Assembly (NCBI GenBank): GCA_030374765.1
Contig: JARGXX010000097.1
Span: 682,001 to 746,000, forward strand
DNA length: 64,000 nucleotides
Direction: 5' to 3'
DNA from: Agarophyton chilense
Taxonomy: Eukaryota; Rhodophyta; Florideophyceae; Gracilariales; Gracilariaceae
Shown: positions 3,758 through 58,611 of the stretch, in pieces
How the letters are laid out: every line of letters starts with the position of its first letter
Position numbering within the stretch: position 1 is the first letter of the stretch
Notes under the pieces: model-generated
Told to the model about the DNA's origin: nothing
The model's database searches: none
The model's input: only the letters and a program-made list of their open reading frames with translations
Translations under genes and position numbers: made by a program

Positions 3758-4326
3758 TGTAGTACTATACAACCACCAATGGCTGAGTGGGGAAGTAGTA
3801 TGTACCGAGGGTAGCGGCGGTAGAGTCCAGCCACTGGGGGTGATAATCCACTGGGGTCTACTTGAGTCGTGGGCACCTTTTGACCAGCGGGCGCAATAGG
3901 CGGGCGTTACCCGAGGACCCTACAGGTCGGGTGGCACTCGTAACGATGGCTTGGAAGCCCGTGTCCTCTGGAACTTTGGGGTAGGTTGAAGACGGAGGTG
4001 GTGCTTGCCTTTACTTCCTCAGTGGCCGGCTGCACTCACGCCACTAATATAGTAGGCGAGGCGCTCAGGTCCACTGGTAAACAACCCTAAAAAATAAAAT
4101 AAAATATCCTACTCCCTCTGGGCGCACTGCCTTTCAATGCCAGGTCCACCGGAGGTCACTGGTCTGATCTCCTGCTCCCGTGTGCATATCTCCACGTGGC
4201 CACTGGGTGGGGTTGCCAACCGCTGCTCCTGCCGTGCGCGTACTTTAGTGCTCGACCGCCGCACCACTTTGGGACTACTCATCCGACACTCAACATCGCT
4301 ACCGTCCTTAGGCCCATTGTACTACA
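3758..4326 (-). repeat. 3' LTR of element B
   Basis: 569 bp, starting TGTAGTAC and ending GTACTACA on the plus strand, an 8-bp terminal inverted repeat. It matches 12,793-13,361 along its full length. It contains six CCANTGG-type palindromes or close variants, showing that the dispersed motif is not confined to coding DNA. Confidence 0.93.
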
Positions 4327-4485
4327 GACTCCCCTCCTTAGATTCGGCCGTCTCGGCCGACCAACGTCCATGCGGTTGATGCCAGTGGACTTACTTCCCC
4401 AAGGAACGCCCCTGGTAGGTCGTGTCAGCGACTTACGGCCGCGTATAGCGTCGCCCAGACTGTACCATGCTGCAGAGAGCGTCCC

Positions 4486-5419
4486 ATGGCATTCCCATTG
4501 GTCACCGGCCTTTTTAGCGCGCACGCGGAGGTTTCTCTGCCACGGGGCTACGTGCCGTGCGTGCGGATCCAATGGGCAGTTGCATCTATCCGTCCGATCG
4601 GGCGCGTGGTGCCCATGACCAATTGGTACCTTCTTCCTGGGGCCGCGTACCGCCTGATCCCGTCGGTCGCTTTCATTCGTCCAGCCGCGTTCCCTCACAA
4701 TTGGTCTTCCTTTCAGCGCGTCCTTTGGGCCGTGATGACGGCAAGACCTATGGCGCGAAGCCTCTGTTGGCTACTCCCGTGGACGTTCCCTGCCGCGACA
4801 TCGCGGATTGCTATCCTCCGGCCATCGGGTTCGACGTCGCTTGCCTCAGGCCTCAGATCTTCGGGGCCCCTGTGGTGCCTGAACCAGCGTCCTCATGGAC
4901 GCCCAACATGGAACCTCCGACGGTCGGGCTTCACGAGTCGTTCAACAGTCCACCGGCCGCTGGTACTGATCCCGGAACGTCCTTTGCGGTCACCGTTGCT
5001 GCTACTCCCTCGGTCGCTCCTGTGATTCCTCGCGCGCATGTTTTCCCTATGGCCGTAACGCAAGCATACGACGATCTCGTCGCCGCTTGCCGTGCCGTCG
5101 GGGCCACCGAGGCCATTGGAGTTGTCGAGGTCTTGAAGGCCGCGCAATCGTAGGTGCGTTGGGCGTCGCGGTAGATTCCCTCGTGGGTAAGAACCAGGAG
5201 GTCAAAAAGGCATTGGCGTCCATCCTGGAGGAGAACGCAAAGGTTCTCTCGAACTCCGTAGCGGCCCATATGGATAACCGTTTCGGACTGAGCCTTACGG
5301 ACACCGAGAACTTCTCGGACAACTCGACCGCCTCGGGTCACAGCCCCCTCCACAAACGCTCCCGCATGGGTCCTTCCAGTGGTCCGTCGTCCTTTTGGGC
5401 TAGCACGAATGTCCAATAA
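4486..5419 (+). CDS. Antisense accessory frame of element B
   Basis: Reading frames on the plus strand lie between the end of pol and the 3' LTR of B, that is, antisense to gag and pol. The main frame runs to 5,153 (ATG candidates near 4,572). It encodes a Pro/Ser/Ala-rich protein ending in a helical segment, and a neighbouring frame to 5,419 has a Lys/Glu-rich helical stretch followed by a Ser-rich tail. It matches no family I know. Elements C and D have an antisense frame in the same place, but the three products do not align by eye. About one break is likely. Function is unknown; a DNA-binding or regulatory role is only a hypothesis. Confidence 0.45.
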
Positions 5420-6354
5420 AGGGTTTCCAAGGGGTCTAGCTCCTTCTTTTCAATGTCCTGGTAGGTCAATTGCTGTTTGACGTGGCCATGTTCGACCTTC
5501 TGGCCTTGGCGCTGCGCTGCCGTCCGGCGGTTCTCCCTCTGCAGGGTCCATCCCGGAGGTCTGTGAGGTCACCTGCCCTATTGAGCGTGGTCAGGGCGCG
5601 TTTCCTTGGGCCATCGGTGGGGACTGGGTGAGTTCCCGCGGAGAAGTCCGTCCGTTGGGCCCTAGCACTACAATCGATTCCCGTGGTCCCTCCTTCGGGA
5701 GCTCTAACCGTAGGTCCAAGAGGTTGGTTTGCGCTCGTCAGACCCGTGGAGGCTTCGTCCTACCACCCTCATCCGTTGGTCGGGAACCGCCGTCTTCTTC
5801 GCGACGCACCACACCGGCCAAGCGGGGAAGGAACAGCGAGCGGTGCCCGTGGCGGCGGTTTGCTCGGTGCGCCGTGGCACGCGCAGATGCCTATTGGTGG
5901 GAGGCGGATCGCGTGTCGCGCGTCCAAAACCTGTGGTCCGGGACGCTCCCCTTCTTCGGACAGATGAACAGCGCTGCAGAATAAAGTCCGAAGGGCGTGT
6001 TCCAGAGGCAGAGGCATTGCCGCAATCGGGAACCAGCCGGCGGGTGATCAAATAAAGTAATTGACCAATTTTTTGAGAAAATCGAATGCCCGCTGGAGTC
6101 CAAATCCGGTGTCCGTGGTCTCTGCGCGGCTTGGTTTCGGGGATGCGGCCGTTTTTTGTTTTGGGCCGAAATCCGGGGTTGCACGGCATCTAAAAAAATT
6201 GACGCAATTCCGACGTCTGATGTTTTGAGTGCCGCGCGCCCCGGGAAGCCTCACGCGCGATCATCCTGAAGGTGTTGTCCAAAGGCGGCTACACCAATTC
6301 CATTGGTCTTACACATATGAGGGCGGCGGTTCGCTCGGCGGGCCGTGCAGCTCC
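5420..6354. other. GC-rich interval of element B without a clear gene
   Basis: This interval lies between the antisense frame and the end of pol. Both strands have overlapping open frames, as expected from GC-rich, stop-poor DNA, and none has a recognisable domain or convincing composition. It belongs to element B by position. Confidence 0.5.
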
Positions 6355-9300
6355 CTATTGGCGGGAGGCGGAACGCGGGGTGCGTGTGACGAACCTATGG
6401 CTAGGAATCCTCCCCTCCTTAAGGTCACGCTCCGTGTGGCCCATTTTTGACCAATAACGGGCAATAAAATTACGTGGGATATTTTCCGCGGGTAGCCATT
6501 GGTCGTCCTTGGGGCTGTAGCCATACCAGCGTACTTTGTAGAGCACCTCGCCATCCTCGTCCAGACCAGCGGAGACCACGCGGTCAACGACGTATTCCCG
6601 CGTTGTGTCGGGTTGGTGCGGGGCGGGAGGCGTACCGGGGGGCGTGATGCTGGGAGAGTGCGCGTGGGACGCGGGGCCATCTGGATCGGCGGAGACCACC
6701 GGCGTGGCGCGTGGAGTGCTGCCCGCAGGACGTGTTGGGCATGCGGGAGGCTCGGAGGACGATGAGGCAGCGGGGGCCACTGGAAAGCTAGGCGCCCGGG
6801 AGACGCGGTCAACGGAGACGGTATCCTGAAGGCCATCGTGGTCAATGGTGACCGTGTTCCCTGTGGTCTTGATAACCCGATACGGGCCAGTGGAGTGCGG
6901 AAGTAGCTTGCGCGCGATGTCCTCGGTTTCGTGTTTTTCCCTCGGCGGTCGGTCCAAGTGGACATAATTTCCAGGGGCGAACTTCGGCGTAAACCATATG
7001 GCCTTGTCAAAGTTAGCTTTGTAGCGATTTTGCGCTTTGTCCAGATTGGTCTGGGCGGCCTTGAGGATAGCGTCGATGCGCTTTCGCGAGTACCTTTTGA
7101 CCTGTGCCGGGGTCATGTCGCCCGTGATGTCCTGAGGGGTAGAGAGCTCTTGAAGCTCGACCATGTAGGGCGTCGGGGCGCGAACCAGAGTAAGGTCGAA
7201 TGGCGTGGTACCGGTGGACCGATGGACTTGGTTATTGTACGCGTAGACCAACGGTTGGACATAGTCGTCCCAGTCCAATTGGTGCTCCGCCACATAGTGG
7301 CTTAACCTTGCGGCCAAGGTGCGATTAAAGCGTTCCGCTTGTCCATTGGTCTGCGGGTGGTAGGCGGTGGTCAGGAGGTGTTTCAGACCTAAGGCCAAGC
7401 AGACATGCTCAAAGAACTTTGAGGTGAACTGCGGCCCATTGTCCGTCAGGAGAAAGAGGGGGAGACCGTAGGGATATATCCAATGGACCAGGAAAGCCAT
7501 TGCAACGTCAGTTGCAGTGGTCGACCGTAGGGGGATGGCTCTTGTCATCTTGGAGAACCTATCGGTTATGACCAAGATGAAGGGATTCCCATGAGTCGAT
7601 TTAGGAAACGGCCCCAGGATATCCATAGCGACGAATTCCGAAGGCCCGGCCGCAGGGAATAGTTTAAGTTTCCCCTGGTGGATGGCCCGTGTCCCGCGGA
7701 TTTTCGCGCAAGCGGCGCAATTCCGTGCGGTCTCCAGGAGGTCGTTGGCCATGAGGGGCCAGTAAAAGAATCTCCTTAAGGTCTGATACATTCTTGTCCC
7801 GCCAGGGTGGTTGGCCATACGGGGGTAGTGGGCGAGATATAAAAGTCTCGCCTGCAGAACCTTTGGTACGACGCGTTGCAATGCTCCGTCCAATGGTGAG
7901 CGTCGGCAGAGAATACCGTGTCGGTCATATTCAAACAATGACCCTGGGGTCCCCATGGCTTTAGCCCACTGGGCGCATTGCTCATCCTTACCTTGGGCCA
8001 CAAGGAATTCCTTGAAGGTAATCGGAGTGAGGTCTTCCACCTCCGAGTCGGCCACATGGACTTCCAATGGCGGGTCCTCCCAGTCTATCGTGCAGGTCAT
8101 GACCGTTGGGGCTTCAACACTAGTGGTTCTAGTGGACACTTCGCCTATGAGGTCTCCGGCGGACTCGTCCTCGTCCCGGTCCCGTGGTCCATCCCATATG
8201 GTGGAAATATCATCGTCCAGAGGAGTTTGATCAGACCCATCGGTCAAAATGCGTGACAGGGCGTCGGCGGCCTGATGCTTCAACCCAGGCCTATAGGTCA
8301 CCTCGTAGTCAAATTCGGCCAAGCGGAGTCTCCAACGGGCCAAACGGGACGACGCGTCGGTCATATTGAGAAGCCATCGGAGGGACGTATAGTCTGTCCT
8401 GATGGTAAAACGCACGCCTTCCAGGTAGGGCCTTAGGTGTAGAACTGACCAAACGATAGCAAGACATTCCCGTTCGGACGTACTGTAGTTCCATTCGGCC
8501 TTCGTGAGGGAGCGGCTCCAGTAGCCAATGGGTCGATAGTCCTTTGGAGAGTCCTGTTCTTGCAGGAGCGTACATCCCACTTGGGTCGCCGACGCATCCG
8601 TGTCAAGGATGTACGGTTTATTGGCCTTTGGTAACGCCAATATTGGTGGGTTCACCAAGTGGTCCTTGAAGCCTTGGTAGGCTTCAAATTGTTCGTCCGT
8701 AAGGTTATCGAACTCCGAAGGGGTCCCTTTTTTAAGCATCTCGTTGAGGGGGGATGCAATCTTGGCAAACCCAGGGACGAACCGACGGTAAACATTGCAG
8801 AGACCTAAAAAGGAACGCAATTCCGTATGGGTCCGCGGGGGTTTAGCACTCCGTATGGCCTTAGTTGTAGCTTTAGCCACCTGGAGTTTGCCCGGTAGGA
8901 CCACATGGCCAAGATAGTCCACCGAAGGCTGAAAGAAGTAACACTTCTTCAGCTTCAGTGTGACACCGGCCTGTTGGAGCAACCTAAGGACAGCCTTCAC
9001 ATGAGTGAAGTGTTCACCAATGGACCTCGAAAAGATGATAACATCATCTAAGTAGACCAGGGCAAATTTCCATTTGACCCTGGAAAGGACGATGTCCATT
9101 GCCCGTTGGAAAGTCACCGGCGCATTCATAAGACCAAAGGGCATTCGCGTGAACCGGAACAGTCCCTCGTGGGTCGTAAAGGTGGTCAACGCCTTGGCCT
9201 TGTCGTCCATTGGTACCTGCCAGTAGCCGCAGTTAGCGTCCAACGTGGTAAAAACTTGGGCCTCACCCAATGAATCCAGACAGTCGTCCATCCTGGGGAT

Positions 9301-10518
9301 AGGGTAACTGTCCCGTTTGGTCACTGCGTTTAGCTTACGGTAATCAATGCAAAACCGAACCGTCCCATCCTTCTTGGCCACGAGGACAAAAGGGCTTGCC
9401 CATTCGGCCTCGTTGGGTGGTGCTCGCTCGATAACTCCAGCGGTCTTCATCTTCGCGATTTCTTGCGCCACTGTTTCTCGTCCTTTAAGGCCTGTCCTAT
9501 AGGGGTGCTGGTACTGCGGGGCGGCGCCTTCCTTGAGGTCAACGCGATGTTTCGTCGCATCGATCTCGCCTAATTTTCCGCTCCACATGTCAGCAAAGTC
9601 CTTCAAGAGCTCGATAACTTTCGTCCTGTAGGGCTCAAATTCCTCCCCGAGGTTGACTTCGCGTTCCCAATTGGCCACTGGTTCTGCGCCCGACGGCAGG
9701 ATTCCCGGCTGGATTCCCGGCTGGATTTCCACTATGGCCACTGGGGCAGGTAGTGTGATTCCAACTACCGTACCTTTGGGCAGCCTCGTGGGTCTATCGT
9801 GGAAATTGCTTAGCGTCACCGCAAAGGGCCTACTGGGTACCTCGTTCATCACTCCATTGGCCATTAGAGCTAAATGCTTGGTGACCAGCTTGGGGTGGTT
9901 CTGCAATGACACAAGACCTGAGGATTCGCAAACCGCTGGGGCTACCACTTGGGTCATCGGCGGTATTACTATCGCCGTAGCCAAACGGACCTTGTTGGAC
10001 ACAGTCTGTTTGGGCAGATTCGGCCTCGTGGGGTTGGCTTCGGGTCCAGGGCGTGATCCAACAATGGCCAATGGGGATGCTCGGTGAAAAGACACCTTCC
10101 TTTGGCCAGGATAGATAGCTTTTACATATCTATCGATAAAACTCGCCCCTAGGATACCCTCTGCCCCCAGGTTCGGACATACAAGAAACCAAGTCCTGAC
10201 CTTCAGGTGATCCAATTGGATATAAAGCGGGATGATTCCGCGAATGTTCATAGGCCGCCTCGAAGCGTCTGTCACCTTCGGTGACTTCCTCTCCTGTACC
10301 ATCCGTTCCCAGCCCAATGGTAAGACCTTCGGATGTACGAGGTTTGGACCTGCGCCCGTGTCCAACACGGCCGTGAAAGTCCGCGTCGTGTTCGCAGGCA
10401 GTGCAAGGGTCCTGTGCACTTTATAATTGTCCTTCCTCAGGACGCATACAGCGTCCTCGAGGTCTTCCCACTGGTCAACGGCGTACACCTGACTCGGGTC
10501 CCGATACACTCCGTCCAT
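6355..10518 (-). CDS. Element B pol: PR-RT-RNase H-IN-chromodomain
   Basis: A single 1,387-residue frame encodes the full Ty3/gypsy enzyme set. Visible landmarks are an aspartic protease D-T-G-A-G near residue 52; reverse transcriptase with Y-L-D-D-V near 488 and M-P-F-G-L before it; RNase H with D-T-D-A-S; an integrase H-H-C-C zinc region near 895 followed by a D,D,E core with L-L-T-D-N-G-P; and a C-terminal chromodomain near 1,310-1,360 ending in V-R-W-Y-G-Y. Chromodomains in this lineage are known to steer integration to modified histones. The first codon shown is an ATG, but fusion to gag by frameshifting is common in the family, so the true start of the polyprotein is uncertain. It is antisense to the accessory frame at 4,486-5,419. 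Confidence 0.93.
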   Translation of the reverse strand: MDGVYRDPSQVYAVDQWEDLEDAVCVLRKDNYKVHRTLALPANTTRTFTAVLDTGAGPNLVHPKVLPLGWERMVQERKSPKVTDASRRPMNIRGIIPLYIQLDHLKVRTWFLVCPNLGAEGILGASFIDRYVKAIYPGQRKVSFHRASPLAIVGSRPGPEANPTRPNLPKQTVSNKVRLATAIVIPPMTQVVAPAVCESSGLVSLQNHPKLVTKHLALMANGVMNEVPSRPFAVTLSNFHDRPTRLPKGTVVGITLPAPVAIVEIQPGIQPGILPSGAEPVANWEREVNLGEEFEPYRTKVIELLKDFADMWSGKLGEIDATKHRVDLKEGAAPQYQHPYRTGLKGRETVAQEIAKMKTAGVIERAPPNEAEWASPFVLVAKKDGTVRFCIDYRKLNAVTKRDSYPIPRMDDCLDSLGEAQVFTTLDANCGYWQVPMDDKAKALTTFTTHEGLFRFTRMPFGLMNAPVTFQRAMDIVLSRVKWKFALVYLDDVIIFSRSIGEHFTHVKAVLRLLQQAGVTLKLKKCYFFQPSVDYLGHVVLPGKLQVAKATTKAIRSAKPPRTHTELRSFLGLCNVYRRFVPGFAKIASPLNEMLKKGTPSEFDNLTDEQFEAYQGFKDHLVNPPILALPKANKPYILDTDASATQVGCTLLQEQDSPKDYRPIGYWSRSLTKAEWNYSTSERECLAIVWSVLHLRPYLEGVRFTIRTDYTSLRWLLNMTDASSRLARWRLRLAEFDYEVTYRPGLKHQAADALSRILTDGSDQTPLDDDISTIWDGPRDRDEDESAGDLIGEVSTRTTSVEAPTVMTCTIDWEDPPLEVHVADSEVEDLTPITFKEFLVAQGKDEQCAQWAKAMGTPGSLFEYDRHGILCRRSPLDGALQRVVPKVLQARLLYLAHYPRMANHPGGTRMYQTLRRFFYWPLMANDLLETARNCAACAKIRGTRAIHQGKLKLFPAAGPSEFVAMDILGPFPKSTHGNPFILVITDRFSKMTRAIPLRSTTATDVAMAFLVHWIYPYGLPLFLLTDNGPQFTSKFFEHVCLALGLKHLLTTAYHPQTNGQAERFNRTLAARLSHYVAEHQLDWDDYVQPLVYAYNNQVHRSTGTTPFDLTLVRAPTPYMVELQELSTPQDITGDMTPAQVKRYSRKRIDAILKAAQTNLDKAQNRYKANFDKAIWFTPKFAPGNYVHLDRPPREKHETEDIARKLLPHSTGPYRVIKTTGNTVTIDHDGLQDTVSVDRVSRAPSFPVAPAASSSSEPPACPTRPAGSTPRATPVVSADPDGPASHAHSPSITPPGTPPAPHQPDTTREYVVDRVVSAGLDEDGEVLYKVRWYGYSPKDDQWLPAENIPRNFIARYWSKMGHTERDLKEGRIPSHRFVTRTPRSASRQ

Positions 10519-10598
10519 TGGTTTTGACTTTAACTTCTCCTCTCGGGTCTCCGTGTCTGGGGTACTGAGGCAGTTGGTGTTAGAGGGACGGCACGCCT

Positions 10599-12665
10599 CT
10601 ATGCGTCCCTCTGGTAGTTTTCCTGTGGCTCCTCAGCCACTCCATCGGCCTCTCGGGTAGGGTGATCGACTTCGTCCATAGGGTCCTCTACCAACTTGAC
10701 CTGACGTCGCTGCACGGGAGTAGCCAACGGAGTTACATAGTTCGAACTCTCTGCGGTCCCTGCGGTCCTCGGGGTGATGGGCCTACGGTAGTACCCCTCT
10801 GCGCGGCGCACCTGATAGTTTTCCTCCCTACGGGCCACTGGGGAATACTTTGGGGTAGCCGGCGCCGATGGAGTTGTCGTCCCTAGGGTCAGAACCGATG
10901 GTGCACCAGATGGGGCCGAATGGAAGCTAACCGCGAACGCATCGGCGGCTTCTGAGTGACCGATGGTAGAGTCCGTATCGGTGTGCGACTCGACCAAATG
11001 GGCACTGCTGTCTTTCGGCAGGGGTCTGGCGCGTCCCCTGGTGTCTACATCTCCCATGCGGCGGGAGGTCCTATAGGTCTTCCCGTATCCTTCGGCATAC
11101 GTCACGAGCTGACGTAGTGATAAGTCCGAATGGGCAGTGTAGTGGTTACGGACGTGAGTCCGTATAGCGGGCAACAGACCAGCGATAAAGTATCGCTTGA
11201 GTCGACCTTCGGAAAAAACGTTCCCGCAGCGGCGGGCACGTGTCTACAATTGGTCGGCATAGTCCGTCTCGGACACATTGGAACCTTGACGGTATCCAAT
11301 AACGTCCTGATAGGCGTCCATTATGTAGTCGTCGGAGGCGTACGTCTCCAACAAATAATGGACAACCTCCGGATAGGTCCTCAGGAGTTCCCGATCTCAT
11401 GCGTCCACTTGATTAGCGGAGCCTGAAATCTTCGCAACAACATGGTCCTTCGCCTGACCCGTGAGGAAAAACTGGAATAAGTACATAGCAGCTCCCTCAT
11501 GGATTCCATTCTGGTCACAGGCCACTTGGAAAGAACTCAAGAACCTAAGGACTGTAATGGGGTCCTTCCCCGAAAACTTGTCCTGGATGGTCACTTGCAC
11601 CCTCTTGGCCCACCTGGCAATGTTCTTGGCGACCGAAGAGGTGTACCGCTCGGACCGATCCAACAGGCGGTACGTGCTCACGTCTAAGACCTTCTGGAAC
11701 AGCTCATTAGTCGTGACCAATGGTCTGAGGCGCCGAACGTCTGCCTCGTCTCCACTGGGGTCAGAGGTGCTGGAGGAGTCCGAATGGTCAACATCGCTTG
11801 AGTCCGAGTGGTCTCTCTTCCGACGGCTCGACCTCTTGGCCTTACGGTTTCTCCTCTTCCTCCTCTGGTCGTCGACACTTCCTTGGGACCTCGCGAAAGG
11901 CTCTTCACTAACCCGATGGTCCTCGACGGCGTACCGACTGCCGTATTGTCCAATGGTCTCATCACCCGCGCGGCCTCTCTGCCTCTGAGGTCTGCTTGCC
12001 TCAGGCGGTTGATAGTCCAATGGGTCTTCCTGTGGGCGCACCAGGCGAGGGGCTATTACAGAGCCTGCTCCCGGGTGTCCGGCTGGATGCGACCGATGGT
12101 TAACCAATGGTATACTTTGAGAGACAGCCCGATGGCTGTCCGTTGGGCCTACCTGGCGGGTGATTTCCCCCTGGATGGTCGTAGCTATCGACTCCACGAG
12201 GACGTCTGATTGTACCACCTGAGGAATGAGATCGCTGGCCAACGAGGAGAGGCGTTTGCGTAGTGCCCGGTCCAAACGGTCCTCTAGGAATGACTCCACC
12301 TGGGTCTCGCACCAGGTGCGGAGTTGCGGCCACAGGAGAGCGGCGACGTCGTCCACCATATGGGCAGGGGGGGCGACTGCAGCTAAGTCCTGGGGATTCA
12401 GTGCGGTGTTCCTAGGGGGGTTCCGTTGGTCTAACTGATGAATCCTCTCACGGAGGCGAGCGACCAATGGCGATTCTCCAGTGATCCTTTCAGGGTCGTC
12501 CACAGGGTCAAGTGTGCGTCCACCAGTGCGGCTGCGCGTGCTCCTCCGGTCACTTACACTGTCCCCTGGTACAGGGAGTGATGCGGGTGTGGCCGAGGGG
12601 GCCGCGGCGGCTGCCGGGGATCCTTGTGGGTCTTCGTTTCGGGGGTTTGTGGGTTGGTTATCCAT
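10599..12665 (-). pseudogene. Element B gag region
   Basis: The gag frame starts at 12,665, about 110 bp inside the primer-binding site, and shows a Pro/Ala-rich N-terminus. A Ser/Asp-rich, highly charged centre follows, then the conserved segment with T-Y-R-L-L-D and E-G-A-A-M-Y-L-F-Q-F-F seen also in D gag. The C-terminal part (10,599-11,174) lies in another frame. The region has about two breaks. I see no convincing CCHC zinc knuckle, unlike the gag of C and D. Confidence 0.75.
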
Positions 12666-12776
12666 AAGGTCGGGGTTGTTTTGCGGTCAAAAACGGCGAC
12701 AAGTAGTCCAATGATAGAAGTCCTATTCCAATTCCTTCGGTCTCGAGATTCCAAAACGGCTGTCCTGTAGACTTCT

Positions 12777-12790
12777 AAGTCGGGAGACCA
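12777..12790 (-). promoter_or_regulatory. Primer-binding site of element B
   Basis: On the minus strand this reads TGGTCTCCCGACTT and is separated from the 5' LTR by two bases. It is identical to the site in A, C and D. Confidence 0.85.
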
Positions 12791-12792
12791 GA

Positions 12793-14597: not shown

Positions 14598-14764
14598 TAT
14601 CCCCCTCGTCAAGCGCGAACTATGGGGGACGCAAGAAGCGTTTATACGCAGTTGGATCGGTGTTCCGGGTACTCATCGTCATCACGAATTCCTCGCCGCC
14701 CGACCAATTTTACAGTTCTCAACAGTATTCTGTTCCTCACCGCTCTTCAGCTCGATCTCTCGCG

Positions 14765-23936: not shown

Positions 23937-23937
23937 T

Positions 23938-45927: not shown

Positions 45928-45930
45928 CAA

Positions 45931-47546: not shown

Positions 47547-47724
47547 TTGTACGCTACCATGCTTTAATTAATGGCCCGTAAACATCTCAAGATCACCTCT
47601 ACCTACTCCAATTTGCGAAAGACGCTTCTGAAAAACACATCTGAAGCTCTTGCACGTCCAATTCCTTGATACATGTAACGCTTCTCCTCCTTTTGTGCAC
47701 TTGATTTCACAGAATAGACCCAAG

Positions 47725-48926: not shown

Positions 48927-50441
48927 ATGCCGGTTACCATTGAGTGTGAAGAAGTTGGCGATTCTGAGGGGATTGATACCTCTGTCGTTATGCCTTTAAG
49001 GTCGGATTGGTCCCGTTCCACGATACCTCAAAGGTCTGGACCCGCTCGCAACCGAACGCCGGCTACTGTTGTACCCGAAAGGTTGGATCCGTTGGCCGTC
49101 TTCTCAGAACGGACCGAGGAGGCTCCACTTCAGAAGGATGAATACCCGCTGGTGTTCACCGCGGCGGTGGAGGTCGAGTCATCATCTCGTTCCTCGGGTC
49201 GAGCTACTGCCTTCCCAACCATGTCAGGGAGCGGCCCATTTCATGGCCGTGGACGCGGTGGTATTACCGAGAGGGTAACTCGCTCGACTTGGCGAACGCC
49301 TACCAACATTGGGTTTCGCAGTATGCCTGTCCCTGCGACTGAGTTCTCCCCTGGGACTCCGACTGACCCGTTCCAACGCAGTGGTGGACTTCCTTCGACG
49401 ATCCAAAACAATTGGGCTCACAATCTCGCGTTCGGTGCGGCGAACCGGACGACGAGTCAGTATAGACCTTTTGGTATTACTTTCGACCAGGTGACGAACA
49501 ATGACCTGTTGAAGCACGATTGGCCTGTGGCCGTAGGGAGTTCGTCGTTGCCGGCAGCTCTTACCAGACCACAATTGGATACCTACTTGGGTTCGTGCCG
49601 TTGCGACTGCGAGCGCTTTCGCTTCGTTCCCTTGCTCTTGAAGAAAAAAGACCAAGAGTCTCAACCTCGTCAGCGTCGACTGGATTTTTTCCAGAGTCGG
49701 CAGCGTCATATACCTTTGAGGTATTACATCCAGCCGATATATCCGAGCGACTTGCAGTATGTGCGCAACGAGCCGGAGCTGGATTATTACAGTCGATTGG
49801 TGGCGCAAGTGTGCCAGTACCCATCTATTCCGGAGACTTACCTTCCGGTTTCACCTGACTTGGTTTCCCTGAATCGGCCTTTCACCACTATCAATTGGGC
49901 TGACCGTAGTAGTTGGGGCGAGGATGCAGCGACGGAGAGTTGTGTTCGCACTCGCAACTCCTACTCTCGCGTTACGCATATGTTTCATAACGTCGAGTAC
50001 TTCTCACAACCTACGAAGGATAGACTCGATTGGTACGTGCTTCGACCAGAGTGGTGGGAGTCCTATGAGGTTCGGTTATCACTGAGCGTGCCCACTCCGC
50101 CAGTCTTGGCGTACTTCAGGAGTCAAATTTCCCAGAACCTAGAGCGGTATTTCCTCATTTGGTCGATTGCCCTCTCGGAGTGGACCGTATTGGTTGCCAT
50201 CCTGGCTCTGGAGGCCGCCCGTTACGGTATCGATTGGGATTGTCGCAATCCCGACTCTGACATATACCGAGATGGTCTTCAACCAGTAGGTCGCATCTTC
50301 TTCATACCTCCGAGGGTTGCCCAGGATATTTCCCGATTTGGTTACGAGAACATCGTGGAGGGGACCGATTATACCGTGAAGGATTTGGACTTGTATCTTG
50401 AGCAGAACAAGAATTACCATTGGGATTCCCATCAAGGTTGA
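48927..50441 (+). CDS. Antisense accessory frame of element D
   Basis: A 504-residue frame on the plus strand, ATG at 48,927, lies between pol and the 3' LTR of D and runs antisense to it. The N-terminal third is Ser/Thr/Pro/Arg-rich with a Gly-Arg patch (G-R-G-R-G-G). The rest looks folded, rich in Trp, Tyr and Arg. One hydrophobic helix (L-I-W-S-I-A-L-S-E-W-T-V-L-V-A-I) sits near residue 410. A Pro/Ser-rich open frame at 50,472-50,954 may be its tail, so about one break is likely. The Tyr- and Trp-rich middle is similar in style to the element C frame, but I cannot align them by eye. No known family. The frame itself contains several CCT-NNN-AGG motifs. Confidence 0.6.
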   Translation: MPVTIECEEVGDSEGIDTSVVMPLRSDWSRSTIPQRSGPARNRTPATVVPERLDPLAVFSERTEEAPLQKDEYPLVFTAAVEVESSSRSSGRATAFPTMSGSGPFHGRGRGGITERVTRSTWRTPTNIGFRSMPVPATEFSPGTPTDPFQRSGGLPSTIQNNWAHNLAFGAANRTTSQYRPFGITFDQVTNNDLLKHDWPVAVGSSSLPAALTRPQLDTYLGSCRCDCERFRFVPLLLKKKDQESQPRQRRLDFFQSRQRHIPLRYYIQPIYPSDLQYVRNEPELDYYSRLVAQVCQYPSIPETYLPVSPDLVSLNRPFTTINWADRSSWGEDAATESCVRTRNSYSRVTHMFHNVEYFSQPTKDRLDWYVLRPEWWESYEVRLSLSVPTPPVLAYFRSQISQNLERYFLIWSIALSEWTVLVAILALEAARYGIDWDCRNPDSDIYRDGLQPVGRIFFIPPRVAQDISRFGYENIVEGTDYTVKDLDLYLEQNKNYHWDSHQG

Positions 50442-51212
50442 GAGGCTTTCGATCCCGCAACTTGGGAGATTGTGCCTCGCCACGCCCAATATTATCCCAG
50501 GAGCCTCCTTTTTGTGGAGCTCCCGCCAGCCCCAAGCCTTAACCACGGTACTGTGGAGACACCAGTTGGTCGTTATGCTGGTCCCTTCCCGTCCGAGCCG
50601 TTACCTCAAGTACGTAAGTCGCCTATCCCTACGGGTGTGACTCCTACTGAACCGAGCTCCTCGCGGATTGCTGGTACGGTTCGACCTCTGTTGGCGGGTA
50701 TTGATCGTCCTCCGCCTCAACCTATGATGGATTCTCCGGCCGTGGTCGGTTTGCTGGCTCCAATTCGCCAGTCTTGCGTCACCAACTTTCAGAGGGCTCA
50801 GCCTACCTCCGGGAATGCTGCATTAACGCTCCTCGAAGGTTTGCTGACGCACCATGCGCATGCAACCTGCTCCGGCGGTTCCTTTCGTTCATCTTCTTTT
50901 GGTTTCGACTTCTCTCCCCAGCGGCAGGGCTACCGCTCCTTTGCTACCTCTTAGGTCGATGGTTCCTAGCATTTCTGCAGGTTTTCCTCCGTGAGTAGTC
51001 AATAACACGGGTCCTCCTGATTCCATTGTTCTTAAACCGACATGTTCATCTTAAAGTAAACTGTTGTCTCTTCTTATCTCCTCTATTGTTCCATTCGGTT
51101 GTTCTTTCGTGTCCTCCCTTGTAGGTAATCTGACGTATATGCGTCCACCTTCTGCGAAAATCGACGTATCTTCTCCCCCTTCCTTAGGCCTGATTACCAC
51201 GAAGGTCTAAGG

Positions 51213-52838
51213 TTAGCCGTCTGCAGGCATCGGCTCCTTGCGACGGCGCCAGTAACTGATACGGAAGTGTGGGGGTATTGCGGCTGGGGGTTCGAGGGTG
51301 TCCCATTCTGGGCCCGAGCCGTACCACCTGACGGTGTACTTCAGACCATTATAAGTTCGCGTGTGGTTCACAAGACGGTCAACGGGAAATTCTTCTGAGG
51401 TTTGGTACTGATCTTTCCGGGGAACGCCACCTCGAGGGTTCATATGCTCCGAGTGTGGAGCTTCGTGTGTGGGAGCCGGGTCGGGAGCTCCCGCTGTTAC
51501 AGTGTGAGGTTCCATTTCCGTCCCTGATAGAGGGTGGTAATCCGGATCATCCCGTTGTAGGTCATCGTTCACTTCAACTGGGGTGGGGTCCTCCGAGGGT
51601 CGAGTACGCAGGGCTACAGCTCTGGGCTCTCGGGCTGGAGTCCCTGCTTCAATGCGATGTTGAACCGTTTCAGGTGCTACTGTAATACGGTCAATTGATA
51701 TCGTATTCGGTATTCCATCTTGGTCAACCGTGACGGTGTGGTCTGATGCGTTCAATACCTTAGAAGGTCCCACTGATTTGGGTAGATGCTTCGAATTGAT
51801 ATCTCTATCAATCGCTTCATCGTCCGCTTCATCACCCGGTCGTGGTCTTTTCCCTGAAGGTGGGTTGTCTATGTAGACATATTGTCCCGAATAAACGGAG
51901 ACCACTTTGGTTACCCTACGGTCGTAGTCGCCCTTATACCACTTCTGGGCTACAGTGAGGCGGTTCTCTGCATGTTTGAGACCCCTCCTCAAACTCACAA
52001 GGATATTCCGCTTGACCTGGGCAGGGGCCAGTGCGCCCGCTGCAGTGCTGGTGGTATGATCTCCCTGCACTACAATACCTGGGGGGTGTCGTGAAAGAAC
52101 CAAATCAAAGGGAGTGTTTTGCGTTGACCGGTGTACCTGAAGGTTATAGGAGTAGGTGAGCGGTTGCACCAGCTCATCCCACCCAGTTTGGTGCTCTTCC
52201 GTATAGTGTCGTAGCCTTGATACCAATGTGTGGTTAAAGCGCTCGACCTGTCCGTTCGTCTGCGGGTGGTAGGGAGTAGTGAAATAGGGCTTGATACCCA
52301 AGAGGTTACAGACTGCTTCGAAGAACTTCGATGCCAAGTTTGAACCATTATCGGTAAGTAGGTACAGTGGTGTGCCATACTGGTAGACCTAATTGTTGAG
52401 GAACGCGATCGCCAGCGTGGTTGACTTCGTCTCCTTTAAAGGTATCGCTCTCGTGAGCTTCGAGAACCTGTCGGTGATCACTAGAATGTGCTGATACACA
52501 TTCTTGGTTTTGGGAAGTGGTCCTAGAACGTCTATCGCAACAAATTCCAGTGGAACCGCTGCTGGAAACAGCTTGAGGTACTTTCGATGCTTTCGAATAC
52601 CACCGCGGGTACGAACCCAAGATTCGCATTGACCTACAAAGGTACAGACATCATGGGCCATATGAGGCCAATAGAACTGTTGCCTCAAGGTGTAATACAT
52701 CCTGGTGGCACCGGGGTGTCCCGATAGTTGCGGGTAGTGCGCAAGATACAAGACTCTCGGGTGCAGTGCTTTCGGAACCACCTTTTGAAGGCTACCATCC
52801 AAGGTTGACCGTCTCACGGTGTGCTCATTGTGGTCCAC
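51213..52838 (-). pseudogene. Element D integrase and chromodomain
   Basis: Integrase zinc region near 52,700 (H-Y-P-Q-L-S-G-H-P-G...), core with H-P-Q-T-N-G-Q-V-E-R-F-N at 52,250, and a chromodomain at the end (F-P-V-D-R-L-V, then V-R-W-Y-G-S-G-P-E-W-D-T). It has the same order as elements B and C. It is broken. Confidence 0.82.
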
Positions 52839-53420
52839 ATCGAACGGTGATCCTTTGAAACCAATTTGGTCAGCCAGGGTTCTGCAGTACGCATCCTGGG
52901 CCTATTCTCGTAGAAATTCCTCTCCGGTTACGCACATGACGTTCGTTTCCTCTAGGGTCAGTATCTGCGTTGCCATGTCGGTGTTCCGCAAAGCACCTTC
53001 TTCAGGTAAGTCCCAACATCCTTCTAGGTGTTCGCCGGTATCATTTTGGTTTGATGACACCAAAAAGCAAGGGATATGATCGTCCACAGGTTATGTCTCT
53101 ATCCCTGAGGTGTTTAAGCGTGACATAGCATCAGCTATGTTGTGCTTGATACCTGGACGGTACTGTACGTTGTATTCAAACTCCGAAAGTCTCAAACTCC
53201 AACGGGCAAGTCTACCAGGCGCATCTGCGAGTCCGAGGATCTACTTTAAGGCGTCGTGGTCCGTGCGCAACGTAAAGCGCTCACCATAAAGGTATGGACG
53301 GAGCATCAACATGCTCCACACTATTGCTAGACATTCCTTTTCGGATACCGTGTAGTTCTGCTCCGCCTCATTCATAGCGCGGCTCCAGTACCATATAGAT
53401 AATTTGTCTCCGGTGTGCTG

Positions 53421-55502
53421 CTACTGCATGAGACAACAACCAATTCCGGCATGGGATGCATCTGTATCCAACGTGTACGGTAGACCTGTTTTCGGTAACG
53501 CTAAGATTGGCGGCGAGTACAGCGCTCGTTTCAATTCCTCAAAGGTATCCATTTCTTCGTTCGATAGATTATCAAACCGTTCAGGTTCACCTTCCTGGAG
53601 CTTCTTGTGGAGGGGAGCCGCTATTTTCGCGAATCCCTTCACGAATCGACGATAGACGTTACATAAACCTATAAAGGATCGTACGTCTGTCTGGGATCGT
53701 GGCAACTTGACCTCCTGTACGGCTCTAATGTTGCTCGGCGCAACCTCTAGGGTACCAGGGCCTATGATGTGGCCCAGGTATTCAACCGTTCTGGTAAAGA
53801 AGGCGCATTTGCGTAGCTTCAGCGTCACCCCCGCCTCAGCTAGGAGGGTAAGTACGGTGCGTACTTGAGCAAAATGCTCTTCTACCGATCTGGAATAGAT
53901 GATTACATCATCGATGTATACCAAGGCGATTGTCCATTTAACCTTCGAAAGGATGATGTCCAGCGCCCTTTTAAAGGTGGCTGGAGCATTGCACAACCCG
54001 AAAGGCATCCTCGTGAAGCGAAACAAACCTGCATGGCACGTGAAGGTCGTTTTGTCTCGATCTTCCCCATCTACAGGTACCTGCCAATAACCACAATTGG
54101 CATCCAACGTGGTAAATATCTGCGCATCTCCCAAGGAGTCGATGCACTCATCCATTCTAGGTATCGGGTACGAATCCCTGATGGTCACGCTGTTGAGCCT
54201 CCTGTATTCCACACAAAACCCCATACGGCCATCTCCTTTCTTCTGAACCAGAACTACGGGACTAGCCCATTCTGAGTTGACTGCTTCAATTGCACCTTCT
54301 TGGAGCATTCGCTCCACTTCTTTGAGTTCTACTTCTCTCGCCTTCGGACCGGCACGGTATCGTTGCTGATAAATCGGCTTCAAGTCAGGGAGGAGCTCGA
54401 TGCGATTCTGTGTGGCATTAATTTGGCCCAGACGGCCTGACCCCATGGTTTTAAACTCCTCTAGAAGGTCGAAAATACGGCCTCACAGTTCGCCGTTATC
54501 TTCGCCGATCTGGACTGTATCTTGACATTGTCTCTCAGCGTCCGGTTTCTTTTCTTTGTCTACCGATGCCTTATCGGTTAGCTTTGCTTCCAACTTGGTA
54601 TTTATCGATACCTTTGTGGTTGTGGACGCATTTGCGTAGCCCCCTTCCTTATCGAAGGCGACCTCGCCGAGATCAGTGTGAGCTACGGTGAAGACTCCTT
54701 AGGGTGCCGGTAGTGCGATGCTAACATTGGTATTTTTCGGCAACTTCACGTCGTGCCTGCCGAAGTTACTGAGACACACCTTAAAGGGTTGATTTGGGAT
54801 GTTTTCGACAATCCCGTTGGCCATCAAGGTGACGTGTCAATGTGCTAACCTCGGATGGTTTTGTCGTTTGACCAGCCCGGGGGTCGCACACGACACCGGT
54901 ACCAATATTTGGTGCATTGGCGGGATAACAACCTGTTTGGTAATGCGCACTTTGTTGGAAACCGTTTCGGTGGATATCGGTTTTTTCGGTTTGACGAACC
55001 ATCCCCGTTTGTTTTACGTATTACCTAAAATGGCAATTCGTCCCCCCTGACGTAGGGCGACGGTACGGGAACCAGGAAGGATTGCTTTGACATGTCTGTC
55101 AATGAATTTCGTACCTAGTAGGAAGTCTGTCGGTAAACGGTCGACAACAAAGAATTGAAGTCTTACCTTGAGGTGTCCGAGCTGCACCACAGTAGTGAGC
55201 ATAAATCGATGGTTTAGTGGGCGCTCATTTGCATCCACAAGCGGGTTGTTGTCGGGAGGTCGGCTCAAGTTCCGAAGTACCGCCTCAGGTATGACGCGGG
55301 AGTTCAGGACGTTTTAGTCGGCCCCCGTATCCAACACGCAGGTGACCGGAACCGCAAGGCGATCGGATAAACACATTGAAGCACATACTTCATAGTTTTT
55401 GTACTCCATATGACAAACCAGAACTGGTTGTGACGTGTTCTCTTCCACCTTCAAGGTTCTGGGTATCGATTGGCCTTCCGATTGCACGTTGGGTTCGGCC
55501 AT
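53421..55502 (-). pseudogene. Element D protease and reverse transcriptase
   Basis: Reverse transcriptase at 53,421-54,446 shows P-I-P-R-M-D-E, L-D-A-N-C-G-Y-W-Q-V-P, M-P-F-G-L-C-N-A-P and the active site Y-I-D-D-V-I-I-Y. The protease region is at 55,014-55,502 with C-V-L-D-T-G-A-D. It is broken in several places. Confidence 0.82.
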
Positions 55503-57712
55503 TACGCCAACCGCTCGGTGTTTTCCTCCTGTACGGGAGGGGTTGAGTCCAAGTTTGGTGTTTCCTCGATTGTACTGACCTGTACCGGTGTACGGGGTTG
55601 GAACCTATTTGGTGCTTGCGTTGAAGACCCATAGAGGCGTTGGTGATTCTGCATGCGAGCCTGAATCAACTGGTCTCTCATCCCTGGAGGTAAGTTAGCG
55701 CAATTGTTTGCCAAATGGTCTGTCGCGAGACAGAACCAGCAAACGAGGCCTCCAGTTTGGGTGTCTCGCGTTACCATTGATGGGGGCTTCGAAACCTGGT
55801 TGGTAGGAGCAGTGGCGTGGGATGTGGGTGGCGAGTTATGGGAGCTCGCTCCCTGCATCCTATGCGAGCTCACCGAACTTGGCGGCGATTGTACCGAGTT
55901 TGGTGTAGGCGTTGGCGACCAATTTCCTACCGTCGAAGGTTTCGAGAACCGCCCCTGGGTCGCTACCGAGTGGATAGCGGTCCCTGTAGGTACTTCGAAG
56001 TGCGAGCTACCCTCTGAGGTTGTGGTATCTTCAATTTCCAAGACCGACCTTTTCGTTTTATCCTTCGAGTTTGGAGGCATAGCTGGTCTCTTTCCCAGCC
56101 GAAGGGTATCTCCAAGGCCCTGGGAGTATCGAGCCTGCCCATTGTAGTCTACCTTTCGGTTAGTGGCCAGGTAGTTGCGTACCTGGGAACGGATCGCTTC
56201 GTCGACATTGTCGGCGAATAGCGACTTTAACCGAGAGGTAGTGAACACATTACCACAGCGGGTTGCCAGATTCCACAGCGCGAGCGAAAACTTCGATTCG
56301 GTTTGCCCAGACCTTTGATGGTAGGCGAGGACTTCCGAATAAGCCTCTTGGATAACCTCATCGGTGGCGTATGTTTCCAAAAAGAAATTGACCACTTCTG
56401 GGTATGACTCCAACATCTCTGTGCCATCCTCATCCATCGCTAAGGTGTTGCCGCGAAGCCTACCCTGCAGCAAGTAGTATGCTTGTCCTTTAAGGTAAAA
56501 CTCAAATAGCCACATAGCAGCGCCCTCGGAAAACCCATTTCGGTCACATGCAATCTTGAACTTCTGTAGAAACTCAATCACCGCAATAGGATCCGTACCT
56601 GTGACGGTTGTGTCACCCATTTGGAAGCTGAGCTTCTTGTGGTGTTTAGTAATCTTCTGAGCAACCTCTTGGGTGTATTCAGACGATTTGTTGATCAACC
56701 GATAAGTCCTGTAATCAAATGCTTTGGTGAACATATCGTTCAACGATTGGTGCACCTCCAGGTCCATTTCGGTGTCCGTCTCAGAGTCGGGCGACTCATT
56801 GTATCGCTTTCTACCCTTTCGGTTCTTTTTCGACGACTTCTTCGTTGACCTGTTCGGTTTCTTCTTCTTCTTACCTTTACAGTCATCATCCGACGATGAA
56901 CTCGTATCGGAACTGGAGTCTGACGAGTCGGGGTCTGTATCATCCTCTCGATTCTTTCCCCTCTTAGTCCTCCGCTTCTTCCCTAATCGGTTTCTTCGTC
57001 GCTCATCCAACGAGTCAGACGAATCGTCCTTGGGACCACCTCCATGGGTATCCTTTTGAACGAAACCAGTAATTGGTGGCAGATAAATGTCTTGAGGATC
57101 TACCTTCCCCGGGACCTCTTGACTCTGCCTTGGACCTTGTAGGTACTCACTATCAGTAGGTAAGTGTTTGAAATGCGTGGGATGACCCATTTGGAACCCT
57201 TGTGGTATGCGCTTTGCGATGTTCACCTGTGTAGGTCGGGATTCTGCGAATCTCTCGGAAACCCAAAGGTCCTGCACAGCACGGTAAACATGCTCCCTAG
57301 CATCTGTGAAGATATACTGTTTCACCATTTCAGGTATCATGTCCGATAGCTCTTGAGCTGCTCGGTCAAACACAATACGGGTAAATGCATCGACGTCCAT
57401 TGAGGGCGGAACCATCCGGGTATCCGACTTCTCCTTTAAGGTTAATGCATCCTCGACCGCGAGGGTGACGAGCGCTTTCCCTCGCTCTTCGAGCTGAGGC
57501 CATAGCTCCTCCGCTGCAACCTCAATTGGTAATTCCCTTTGAGGTTCCGTTGCCATAGGCAGCGGACCATGTATCTTTCCAGTTTTGTCTCGAGGGTGCC
57601 GGAGCAGTTCCTCGGGGGTTTCCAGAATCGGTTGAGCCGATGGGGCTCCTTTAAGACCTTTATGGCTTGGCGGGGCGCTCGCACCACGCGTATTCCTTTT
57701 AGGTTGTTCCAT
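55502..57712 (-). CDS. Element D gag
   Basis: A whole 736-residue frame. The N-terminal region has a Pro/Gln-rich leader, then a helical segment. A long Lys/Arg and Asp/Ser-rich charged centre follows (D-D-T-D-P-D-S-S-D-S-S-S-D-T-S). Next is the conserved D-Y-R-T-Y-R-L-I-N-K-S and G-A-A-M-W-L-F-E-F-Y-L-K-G segment shared with B gag, and a zinc knuckle C-W-F-C-L-A-T-D-H-L-A-N-N-C near residue 660. It is the only uninterrupted chromodomain-element gag in the window. Confidence 0.85.
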   Translation of the reverse strand: MEQPKRNTRGASAPPSHKGLKGAPSAQPILETPEELLRHPRDKTGKIHGPLPMATEPQRELPIEVAAEELWPQLEERGKALVTLAVEDALTLKEKSDTRMVPPSMDVDAFTRIVFDRAAQELSDMIPEMVKQYIFTDAREHVYRAVQDLWVSERFAESRPTQVNIAKRIPQGFQMGHPTHFKHLPTDSEYLQGPRQSQEVPGKVDPQDIYLPPITGFVQKDTHGGGPKDDSSDSLDERRRNRLGKKRRTKRGKNREDDTDPDSSDSSSDTSSSSDDDCKGKKKKKPNRSTKKSSKKNRKGRKRYNESPDSETDTEMDLEVHQSLNDMFTKAFDYRTYRLINKSSEYTQEVAQKITKHHKKLSFQMGDTTVTGTDPIAVIEFLQKFKIACDRNGFSEGAAMWLFEFYLKGQAYYLLQGRLRGNTLAMDEDGTEMLESYPEVVNFFLETYATDEVIQEAYSEVLAYHQRSGQTESKFSLALWNLATRCGNVFTTSRLKSLFADNVDEAIRSQVRNYLATNRKVDYNGQARYSQGLGDTLRLGKRPAMPPNSKDKTKRSVLEIEDTTTSEGSSHFEVPTGTAIHSVATQGRFSKPSTVGNWSPTPTPNSVQSPPSSVSSHRMQGASSHNSPPTSHATAPTNQVSKPPSMVTRDTQTGGLVCWFCLATDHLANNCANLPPGMRDQLIQARMQNHQRLYGSSTQAPNRFQPRTPVQVSTIEETPNLDSTPPVQEENTERLA

Positions 57713-57842
57713 TTGTGACCAATAGTGGTATCCTGTATTGCTTTGCGGGATCTACTGAAACCAAATAGGTGTACGAGCGTCCAATCCTTCTCGGAATCTC
57801 GTGTGAACCGTGATGGTACGACAAAATCTAAAAATACTTTCT

Positions 57843-57856
57843 AAGTCGGGAGACCA
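57843..57856 (-). promoter_or_regulatory. Primer-binding site of element D
   Basis: Minus strand TGGTCTCCCGACTT, three bases from the 5' LTR, identical to A, B and C. Confidence 0.85.
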
Positions 57857-57859
57857 AAA

Positions 57860-58611
57860 TGTCATACAATCACCTCTGGGATATGCTACTGTCTTGTCTC
57901 GGGAGCGTAGTGACGCTCAACCGTAGGTAGCGTGTTGACGCTCAACCTTAAAAGGTAGACGTAGTAAACTTCGATGGTAACAGGGCACCTTGAAAACCCG
58001 CAAGGGCAAACGGCGGGGCGACTAGCCTATACCGTGTAGGTGAACGATGGTAGGCGTCGACGCGCGGGAAAGCCTGTGTGGTAGTTTAGAAAAAATAAAC
58101 CAAAAGGTATGGTCGTGACCTAAATGATGCCTGTCTTTATCAGATTAGGATGGGGGAGGTGCAGTTCCCTATATGCAGTGGACTGCACTCTCCGGATCAC
58201 CCGCAAGGTGCCAGAAAGGTACGGTTTCTGACCTTGTGTCAGAGACCTGGCCAACACTGGCTACAGTGCCAGGTGGCCACTCAATCACTGTACTAAAATA
58301 CACATAATTACAATTACAATCACTAACAATTACTCAAACAGTAGGTACATGTCAACACTACACGTGGCTGACAACAACTAGATGGTAGCTCGCCCGGAGC
58401 TGCATGGCCGATGATCACTCGCACCCATCACCTACAGGGTCAGTGCAGTATATTGATAACCTCAAAGGTCAGACCTTCTGCCACTATACGACACCATCGA
58501 GATTTACTACGTCTCCCTTCTAACGTTGAGCATCAACACGCTTTCTACGGTTGAGCGTCACTACGCTCCCGAGACAAGACAATAGCATACACCAGAGGTG
58601 ATTGTACGACA
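57860..58611 (-). repeat. 5' LTR of element D with inverted 118-bp arms
   Basis: The LTR starts TGTCATACAATC beside the primer site and plausibly ends TATACGACA at 58,493. The first 118 bp (57,860-57,977) recur in inverted orientation at 58,494-58,611, ending TTGTACGACA, so the whole 752 bp can fold as a long hairpin. The inner 369 bp match the partial LTR at 47,725. Confidence 0.7.

Follow-up and report, generated by a model that had tools for sequence, protein, structure and literature searches.

Private dyad codes run through three neighbouring Ty3 retrotransposons of the red alga Agarophyton chilense and may mark each element's own DNA

In this study, we analysed a 64,000-nucleotide stretch of the genome of the red alga Agarophyton chilense (assembly GCA_030374765.1, contig JARGXX010000097.1, positions 682,001 to 746,000 of the forward strand; hereafter the window), in which three related Ty3 retrotransposons, all on the minus strand and here named E1, E2 and E5, each carry a short dyad-symmetric code of their own. 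The codes are private to the element, dense and independent of the encoded protein, and the sites of each coded element span long terminal repeats (LTRs), genes and non-coding DNA. They are of two kinds: E1 and E5 use fixed, independent half-sites, and E2, together with L002, a related contig from outside the window, uses complementary arms of free sequence with a fixed arm length and spacer. It is very probable that these codes are selected tags at the level of DNA. An earlier reading of the same DNA by a model, hereafter the original prediction, had attributed to E1 and E5 (its B and D) a dispersed palindromic motif and an antisense protein each, had expected a motif in E2 (its C), and had proposed a link between protein and motif.

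The motifs of E1 and E5 are confirmed. With one LTR counted per element and the mean of 200 dinucleotide shuffles as expectation, CCA-N1/2-TGG occurs 58 times in E1 versus 6.4 (z +20.6; shuffle maximum 15) and ACC-N5/6-GGT 79 times in E5 versus 6.5 (z +28.5; shuffle maximum 15). A gapped-palindrome scan in which both LTRs were counted gave 41 versus 3.6 for CCA-N1-TGG in E1 and 53 versus 3.5 for ACC-N5-GGT in E5, and the tolerance for the spacer is alike in shape, with 41, 23 and 12 copies at N1 to N3 in E1 and 53, 29 and 13 at N5 to N7 in E5. The E1 motif sits on a denser core, CC-N3/4-GG (359 versus 145.9). Around CC-N5-GG in E5 the left flank is A in 72 of 135 sites and the right flank T in 91 of 135, and 59 flanking pairs are complementary versus 55.1 expected from these margins, which indicates independent half-sites. 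The inner pair of E1 is likewise near independence at three spacings (60 versus 50.6, 45 versus 46.7, 35 versus 31.1), and complementarity in its outer pair falls short of expectation (33 versus 46.0, 29 versus 42.5). This behaviour fits a symmetric DNA-binding protein with additive half-sites.

E2 does possess a code of its own, as the original prediction had expected, but the code has no fixed motif. Any four-base arm, inverted across a four-base spacer (k4N4), is found 171 times versus 38.9 (z +21.1; shuffle maximum 58), and dyads with an N4 or N5 spacer number 285, chance sites included, or about one per 35 bp. Within the pattern CXG-N4-CYG, the four complementary combinations have 13 to 17 copies each and the other 12 of the 16 only 0 to 5. 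The 171 sites comprise 100 distinct arms, where independent columns give 105.5 +- 3.6, and arm concentration as a sum of squares is 429 versus 393 +- 23; a finite set of protein specificities was rejected on this ground, the arms being barely more concentrated than independent columns. C is mildly preferred as the second arm base and G as the fourth, and the more G and C an arm holds the stronger the enrichment, which is 1.1 for arms with a single G or C and 10.5 for arms with four. With three G-C pairs in place, the fourth pair stands at 6.2 when A-U, 1.29 when G.U, 1.62 when A.C and 1.28 for other mismatches; with two G-C pairs and one A-U, G.U reaches 1.46 and A.C 0.97, and at N5 sites G.U is at 1.0. 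Pairs just inside the arms are complementary at about chance (22-23%) and pairs just outside below it (16%), the fifth outward pair being depleted with a z of -4.7 when N4 and N5 sites are pooled. From these wobble, arm and flanking-pair results, the unit of the E2 code is four Watson-Crick pairs, and the simplest view is that they are read on DNA.

The E2 sites are also ordered along the element. Centre distances below 15 bp are avoided, 15-21 bp favoured (69 versus 48), 27-33 avoided (26 versus 48) and 33-39 favoured (64 versus 48), with the same direction in each third of the element, and the sites are more even than random (coefficient of variation, CV, 0.73 versus 0.98 +- 0.06). Evenness is weak in E5 (CV 0.84 versus 0.98 +- 0.09) and absent for CCAN1-2TGG in E1 (1.02 versus 0.96), and no regular phasing as clear as that of E2 was seen in either.

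The elements and their open reading frames (ORFs), in positions of the window, are as follows.

3758..13361, minus strand: E1, Ty3 chromodomain element, LTRs 96.5% identical
3758..4326, minus strand: 3' LTR of E1, direct repeat
6355..10518, minus strand: pol of E1, a single open frame of 1387 amino acids with reverse transcriptase (RT), RNase H, integrase and chromodomain
11397..12665, minus strand: gag-like ORF of E1, 422 amino acids, assigned by position and similarity
12793..13361, minus strand: 5' LTR of E1, direct repeat, with a primer-binding-like site next to it on the minus strand (flanking sequence)
13883..24648, minus strand: E2, Ty3 chromodomain element, LTRs 95.9% identical, LTR ends approximate
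14531..16450, plus strand: antisense ORF of E2, 639 amino acids, between pol and 3' LTR, its start within the LTR
16734..18473, minus strand: integrase and chromodomain ORF of E2 (Pfam rve 1.3e-08, Chromo 3.7e-06)
19788..20732, minus strand: RT ORF of E2 (RVT_1 3.2e-27)
22734..23936, minus strand: gag-like ORF of E2, 400 amino acids, with short similarity to those of E1 and E5
47717..58498, minus strand: E5, Ty3 element, LTRs 89.5% identical, LTR ends approximate
48927..50441, plus strand: antisense ORF of E5, 504 amino acids, between pol and 3' LTR
51213..52388, minus strand: integrase end of E5 pol, matching residues 1014-1358 of E1 pol at 40% identity (385 aligned positions)
53421..54446, minus strand: RT ORF of E5, 59% identical to E1 RT over 344 positions
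55502..57712, minus strand: gag-like ORF of E5, 736 amino acids, resembling that of E1

The codes are written independently of these proteins. Synonymous codons were permuted within each ORF with the protein kept (200 shuffles per ORF), and the element's main code (for E5, the N5 spacing) exceeded all 200 shuffles in 12 of 12 ORFs tested: pol (30 versus 7.5) and gag (10 versus 2.9) of E1; antisense (48 versus 17.9), integrase (46 versus 15.9), RNase H (17 versus 6.4), RT (25 versus 9.5), protease part (21 versus 6.1) and gag (36 versus 12.0) of E2; and antisense (8 versus 1.2), integrase (5 versus 1.2), RT (4 versus 0.5) and gag (10 versus 2.3) of E5. The N6 spacing of E5 is clear in gag (12 versus 2.7), weak in antisense (4 versus 1.0) and integrase (4 versus 1.3), and absent in RT (0 versus 0.1). 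Coding constraint, which the original prediction had named as a result that would overturn it, and base composition are refuted as causes by the codon shuffles, the dinucleotide shuffles and the presence of the codes in LTRs, and we give them virtually no chance. When 26 arm and spacer geometries were profiled against 120 codon shuffles, k4N4 was the best geometry in three of the four E2 ORFs of at least 300 amino acids (z 7.7-8.9), and in the fourth it tied with k4N5 (3.8). None of the 120 shuffles reached the E2 maxima, but the same held for a frame of a control contig with a z of 3.9, so that the size of z outweighs the shuffle count.

Privacy is equally evident. The E1 code occurs 8 times in E5 versus 5.9 and the E5 code 8 times in E1 versus 6.9; foreign codes stay at or close to background in E1 and E5, the largest z being +2.0 (k4N4 in E1), and in the copia elements of the window, E3 and E4, all codes are at background. 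E2 has a mild surplus of other codes (CCAN1-2TGG 9 versus 4.3; ACCN5-6GGT 9 versus 3.8; CCN3-4GG 103 versus 67.1), as does the rest of the window (ACCN5-6GGT 18 versus 7.2; k4N4 133 versus 95.6), where the surplus perhaps comes from older Ty3 remnants.

Relatives were sought in viral contigs, in genome contigs and in two genome sets (137 and 386 genomes), both with the centre genome among them. The viral contig scans gave no relatives, the 137- and 386-genome searches one further weak match only (G413, 8.7e-4), and the genome contigs (GTDB) two contigs with relatives, L001 and L002, both of which look like eukaryotic contamination. L002 (4100 bp) is a Ty3 contig whose RT is 63% identical to that of E5 over 142 amino acids and 50% to that of E2 over 269. 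It carries sequence-free dyads with five-base arms and a three-base spacer (5-N3-5; 27 versus 4.3 in shuffles), which exceed codon shuffles in gag (18 versus 4.0) and pol (10 versus 1.8), and its two ORFs gave best geometries with z of 7.1 and 6.0. Its near-misses with G.T (22) and A.C (28), each versus 10.4, are about equal, as expected from transition decay. The genome of L002 (G002), a metagenome-assembled genome of Robiginitomaculum, has several contigs with retroelement polyproteins, probably also eukaryotic contamination. In L001, with a pol frame of 1704 amino acids, the best geometry was matched by 412 of 1500 shuffles, which indicates no code; CTT-N4-AAG occurs there 7 times versus 1.0 (8e-05, uncorrected for the hundreds of patterns tried). 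Altogether ten contigs were profiled by codon shuffles, some again with up to 1500. L020, L022, L023, L024 and L025 were code-negative in this profiling, and L027 (4/1500) and L021 (21/1500 and 51/1500) are suggestive only, because frames of the control L026 (oxidoreductase genes) reached 10/600 and 0/120. A distant Ty3-like pol at 468-4859 of L027 is weakly enriched in long dyads with odd spacers (k5N7, k5N9), and L027 possibly carries another dyad geometry.

The motifs are real, private to their elements and maintained at the level of nucleic acid, most likely as DNA. What they are for is less certain, and we are evenly divided on the fuller account that whole-element private dyad codes, selected in the replicating lineage, serve recognition of an element's own DNA. 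In E1 and E5, a sequence-specific DNA-binding protein of two-fold symmetry would read the code; in E2 and L002, it would be read through DNA self-pairing, as hairpins in single-stranded complementary DNA (cDNA) or in a dyad-dependent complex. With less support, an element-made reader may coat the element's own DNA or cDNA, shield or compact it and ignore neighbouring elements, and such a coat would act against silencing or self-integration. That the reader is encoded by the element itself we put at an even chance; that the purpose is anti-silencing is rather doubtful, and that the reader is the antisense protein is more doubtful still, the antisense proteins of E2 and E5 being candidate readers and nothing more. 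More tentatively, some Ty3 elements might write a self-identity code along their whole length by synonymous choice, either as a half-site pair or as a sequence-free dyad of fixed geometry via DNA self-pairing, and in the latter class it would then be arm length and spacer, not letters, that identify the element.

Several observations weigh against self-recognition by such codes. Among the differences between the two LTRs of E2, 10 of 29 fall in arms versus 7.8 expected, so the arms were not spared after insertion and the codes reflect the replicating lineage; the corresponding counts in E1 (1 versus 2.2) and E5 (2 versus 1.7) say little. One LTR of E2 has 23 dyads and the other 16, with 15 common to both. 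Selection is something we infer from enrichment alone, and the reader protein of the codes is putative. The trait is not general, L001 and most other retroelement contigs being unconvincing. We know of no protein reader that fits a sequence-free code, and hairpins of four bp are weak. The two strands of E5 are not equivalent (TCC-N5-GGT 23, its mirror ACC-N5-GGA 8), at both central loop bases of E2 the sense strand is rich in A (57 and 61 A against 41 and 26 T, n=159), and RNA folding energy of E2 is barely better than shuffled (z -0.97 for the minus and -0.74 for the plus strand). In the RT of E1, codons in CCAN1-2TGG arms (n=13) are less like E5 than the others (0.38 versus 0.61), so that some protein cost of the motif is possible there; codons in the CC-N-GG core are not costlier (0.65 versus 0.61).

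The mechanism proposed in the original prediction, in which each element's antisense protein binds its own motif and lifts silencing as VANC does for VANDAL, deserves first consideration among the alternatives, and we think it unlikely. VANDALs are Mutator-like DNA transposons. Long antisense ORFs do lie at the same place in E2 and E5, each with a private code: the longest stop-free run in the tested region is 618 codons in E2 (maximum of 200 shuffles 255) and 513 in E5 (280). In E1, for which such a protein had also been predicted, the longest run is 227 codons, ordinary against a shuffle mean of 202 and maximum of 344, and none of the frames clearly follows the codon usage of E1, although a spliced or decayed antisense gene may be present. 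E1 thus has a strong motif with no demonstrable gene, which is a situation that the original prediction had itself named as refuting its idea and which, barring loss of the gene, speaks against tying motif to antisense frame. Those of E2 and E5 have no BLASTP similarity to each other, match no Pfam family and have no convincing match among solved structures; the single-sequence structure models, in which the original prediction would have looked for DNA-binding folds, are unusable (mean pLDDT, the predicted local distance difference test score, 29.5 for E2 and 35.1 for E5). On the other hand, downstream of pol the code-less L001 has no minus-strand ORF above 133 amino acids, although its contig may end early. 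At 30486..30863 on the minus strand lies a decayed, stop-containing relative of the E2 antisense protein (tblastn 8e-07; 31% over 131 amino acids), so the E2 antisense gene is older than E2. The surrounding stretch (29000-32425) has a weak surplus of 4-N4-4 dyads (28 versus 14.7), but a like surplus (23 versus 11.6) is found at 26400-29000, where no antisense relative was detected, and in both stretches much of it is in AT-only arms (16 versus 4.9; arms with three G or C 9 versus 2.5).

Comparison with VANC itself leads to a similar view. As far as the consulted parts of the accounts go, VANDAL families share with our elements dense, family-specific short motifs that differ between related families (PMC5735166, PMC10398659), and an element-private dense motif is indeed present in E1 and E5, the private code of E2 being no sequence motif. 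The VANC21 motif YAGTATTAY is described there as asymmetric, arrayed in a single orientation and found mainly outside coding regions (PMC5735166), unlike the codes of E1, E2 and E5, which are two-fold symmetric and dispersed through genes, one kind having no fixed sequence. Nor did we find in every element a related gene whose DNA-reading part varies, E2 and E5 having dissimilar antisense proteins and E1 none beyond chance. What survives of VANC-like recognition is private dyads kept apart from coding, and what argues against it is E2 complementarity beyond the reach of a sequence reader and E1 without a demonstrable gene.

Alternatively, a symmetric DNA-bridging protein may coat new cDNA, block self-integration and mark nuclear entry. 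The sites do span LTRs and genes, E2 spacing is even, and symmetric sites at short steps would suit bridging or filament formation. However, even spacing is weak in E5 and missing for the E1 motif, and no protein of such activity was found, so this barrier or compaction role, too, is improbable at present.

A mutational origin, in which snap-back copying by reverse transcriptase makes short inverted repeats that are later tolerated, is quite unlikely. Templated copying would give perfect complementarity of free sequence, and the fixed spacer could equal a hairpin turn. Nevertheless, it leaves the fixed half-sites of E1 and E5 unexplained, and the fifth outward pair in E2 is complementary below chance. 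Moreover, arm bases are spread about equally over codon positions and E2 RT identity is not lowered: codons inside versus outside arms have an identity to E1 of 0.62 versus 0.49 in RT and 0.60 versus 0.47 in RNase H. Integrase is mixed (0.51 versus 0.40 against E1, 0.36 versus 0.42 against E5), and protease (0.27 versus 0.35) and gag (0.26 versus 0.27) have no identity surplus.

Dispersed hairpins in the genomic RNA for packaging are very unlikely. The stem-loop geometry of E2 and L002 and the A-rich middle loop positions of E2 would suit them. Dispersed packaging signals of RNA viruses, as described in the part of the source consulted, are stem-loops of RNA that carry a recognition motif for coat protein (PMC6281560) and resemble our codes as many dispersed dyads across one genome. 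A first count even gave an excess of sense-RNA wobble in E2 (106 versus 73.2 for one A.C on the plus strand), which nearly disappeared once arm strength was separated out, and also at N5 sites. In E2, G.U is no better than other mismatches with three G-C pairs and only slightly better with two, so that G.U hardly counts here; G.T and A.C near-misses are about equal in L002, and E2 folding energy is ordinary. Loop A/(A+T) in E2 does not differ overall from background (p 0.11, 0.50), the loop composition thus being mixed, and the spacer of CCA-N1-TGG in E1 is too short for a hairpin loop. Binding sites of host silencing factors would suit whole-element coverage, but sites harmful to the element should vanish rather than persist through synonymous choice, and three codes in three related neighbours would demand three host factors, which makes this the least probable of these alternatives.

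Self-recognition through private codes can also be set beside other known systems. In Sireviruses, which are Ty1/copia elements, repeated palindromic motifs with a CGG-CCG core occur within the LTRs and close to env on its 5' side (PMC2829016); the partly consulted account resembles ours in a high-copy dyad-symmetric motif of variable spacer in an LTR retrotransposon, and differs in having one shared core and a copia host element, where ours are Ty3 elements with whole-element, private codes and a sequence-free class. The Sirevirus arrangement, with its core at those two places of a copia element, is not what E1, E2 and E5 show, their codes running through the genes. Retand antisense genes are placed and oriented like the antisense ORFs of E2 and E5; in the portions of the accounts at hand, the Retand gene has TRP28, for which DNA binding is predicted, and dispersed dyads are not described, and the antisense ORFs here had no Pfam match to the TRP28 domain (PF04195). 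As far as these sources extend, the nearest known cases are VANC in effect, Sirevirus palindromes in form and Retand antisense genes in anatomy, and in none of the three accounts do the whole-element, through-gene distribution and the sequence-free code appear. A largely superficial survey of the open PMC literature, directed in part at dispersed palindromes or hairpins, returned no counterpart to the sequence-free class.

The anatomy of the three elements is that of chromoviruses, with RT, RNase H, integrase and a chromodomain at the end of pol, as recognised by Pfam in E1 (RVT_1 3.5e-34, rve 1.9e-12, Chromo 6.7e-09) and E2 and by similarity in E5. For E5 the similarity to E1 includes the chromodomain region, and the scanned E5 ORF had no Pfam chromodomain reported. 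The pol of E2 is split into several broken frames. The gag-like ORF of E1 has no Pfam match and is 34% identical to that of E5 over 155 amino acids (1.7e-26); that of E2 is 30% identical to E1's over 53 amino acids (0.001) and 32% to E5's over 50 (1.8e-4). Paired LTRs are present in all three, with purine-rich stretches 5' of the 3' LTRs (by eye). E1 ends in TGT..ACA and, alone among the three, has a target duplication, the 5-bp ACCAC (flanks, by eye). E1 (12793) and E2 (23939) have TGGTCTCCCGACTTAGAA in common on the minus strand, directly after the 5' LTR, probably as the same tRNA primer site; TGGTCTCCCGACTTAGAA was not seen at the LTR end of E5, itself approximate, and a tRNA scan gave no matches. 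Around the 5' LTR end of E5, 57859-57978 and 58493-58612 form a 120-nt inverted repeat that is 90% complementary.

The remaining features of the window are listed below.

1..3757, plus strand: older Ty3 element A, left part, with a gag-like frame from 3023, outer ends not fixed
32426-37420: E3, copia-type element, LTRs 99.6% identical, two long ORFs
38643-39848: UTP7/WDR46-like ORF (BING4CT 2.3e-30), the sole host gene identified in the window
40341-40471: array of the hexamer AGGCGA, about 22 copies
41689-46081: E4, copia-type element

Element A resumes at 13362-13882 and from 24649, E1 and E2 being nested inside it, and its pieces at 13391-13861 and from 24651 resemble the gag-like ORFs of E2, E5 and L002. 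E3 is probably the youngest insertion of the window. The two copia-type elements and the UTP7-like gene mark the DNA as eukaryotic.

Outside the VANC case, the means by which a mobile element distinguishes its own DNA from host DNA or from that of rivals are, to our knowledge, largely open. Three codes at one locus, readable from sequence alone, make the co-evolution of code and reader testable by counting. The novelty rests on E2 and L002, for whose sequence-free class we know of no counterpart, the class of E1 and E5 alone being akin to a known kind. If the sequence-free codes are selected, some machinery must sense the complementarity of DNA arms of four to five bases irrespective of their sequence. 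The meaning of the codes is most likely self-recognition, with a symmetric reader acting in E1 and E5 and pairing taking its place in E2 and L002, and the sequence-free dyads point to an unrecognised way for such elements to mark their own DNA.

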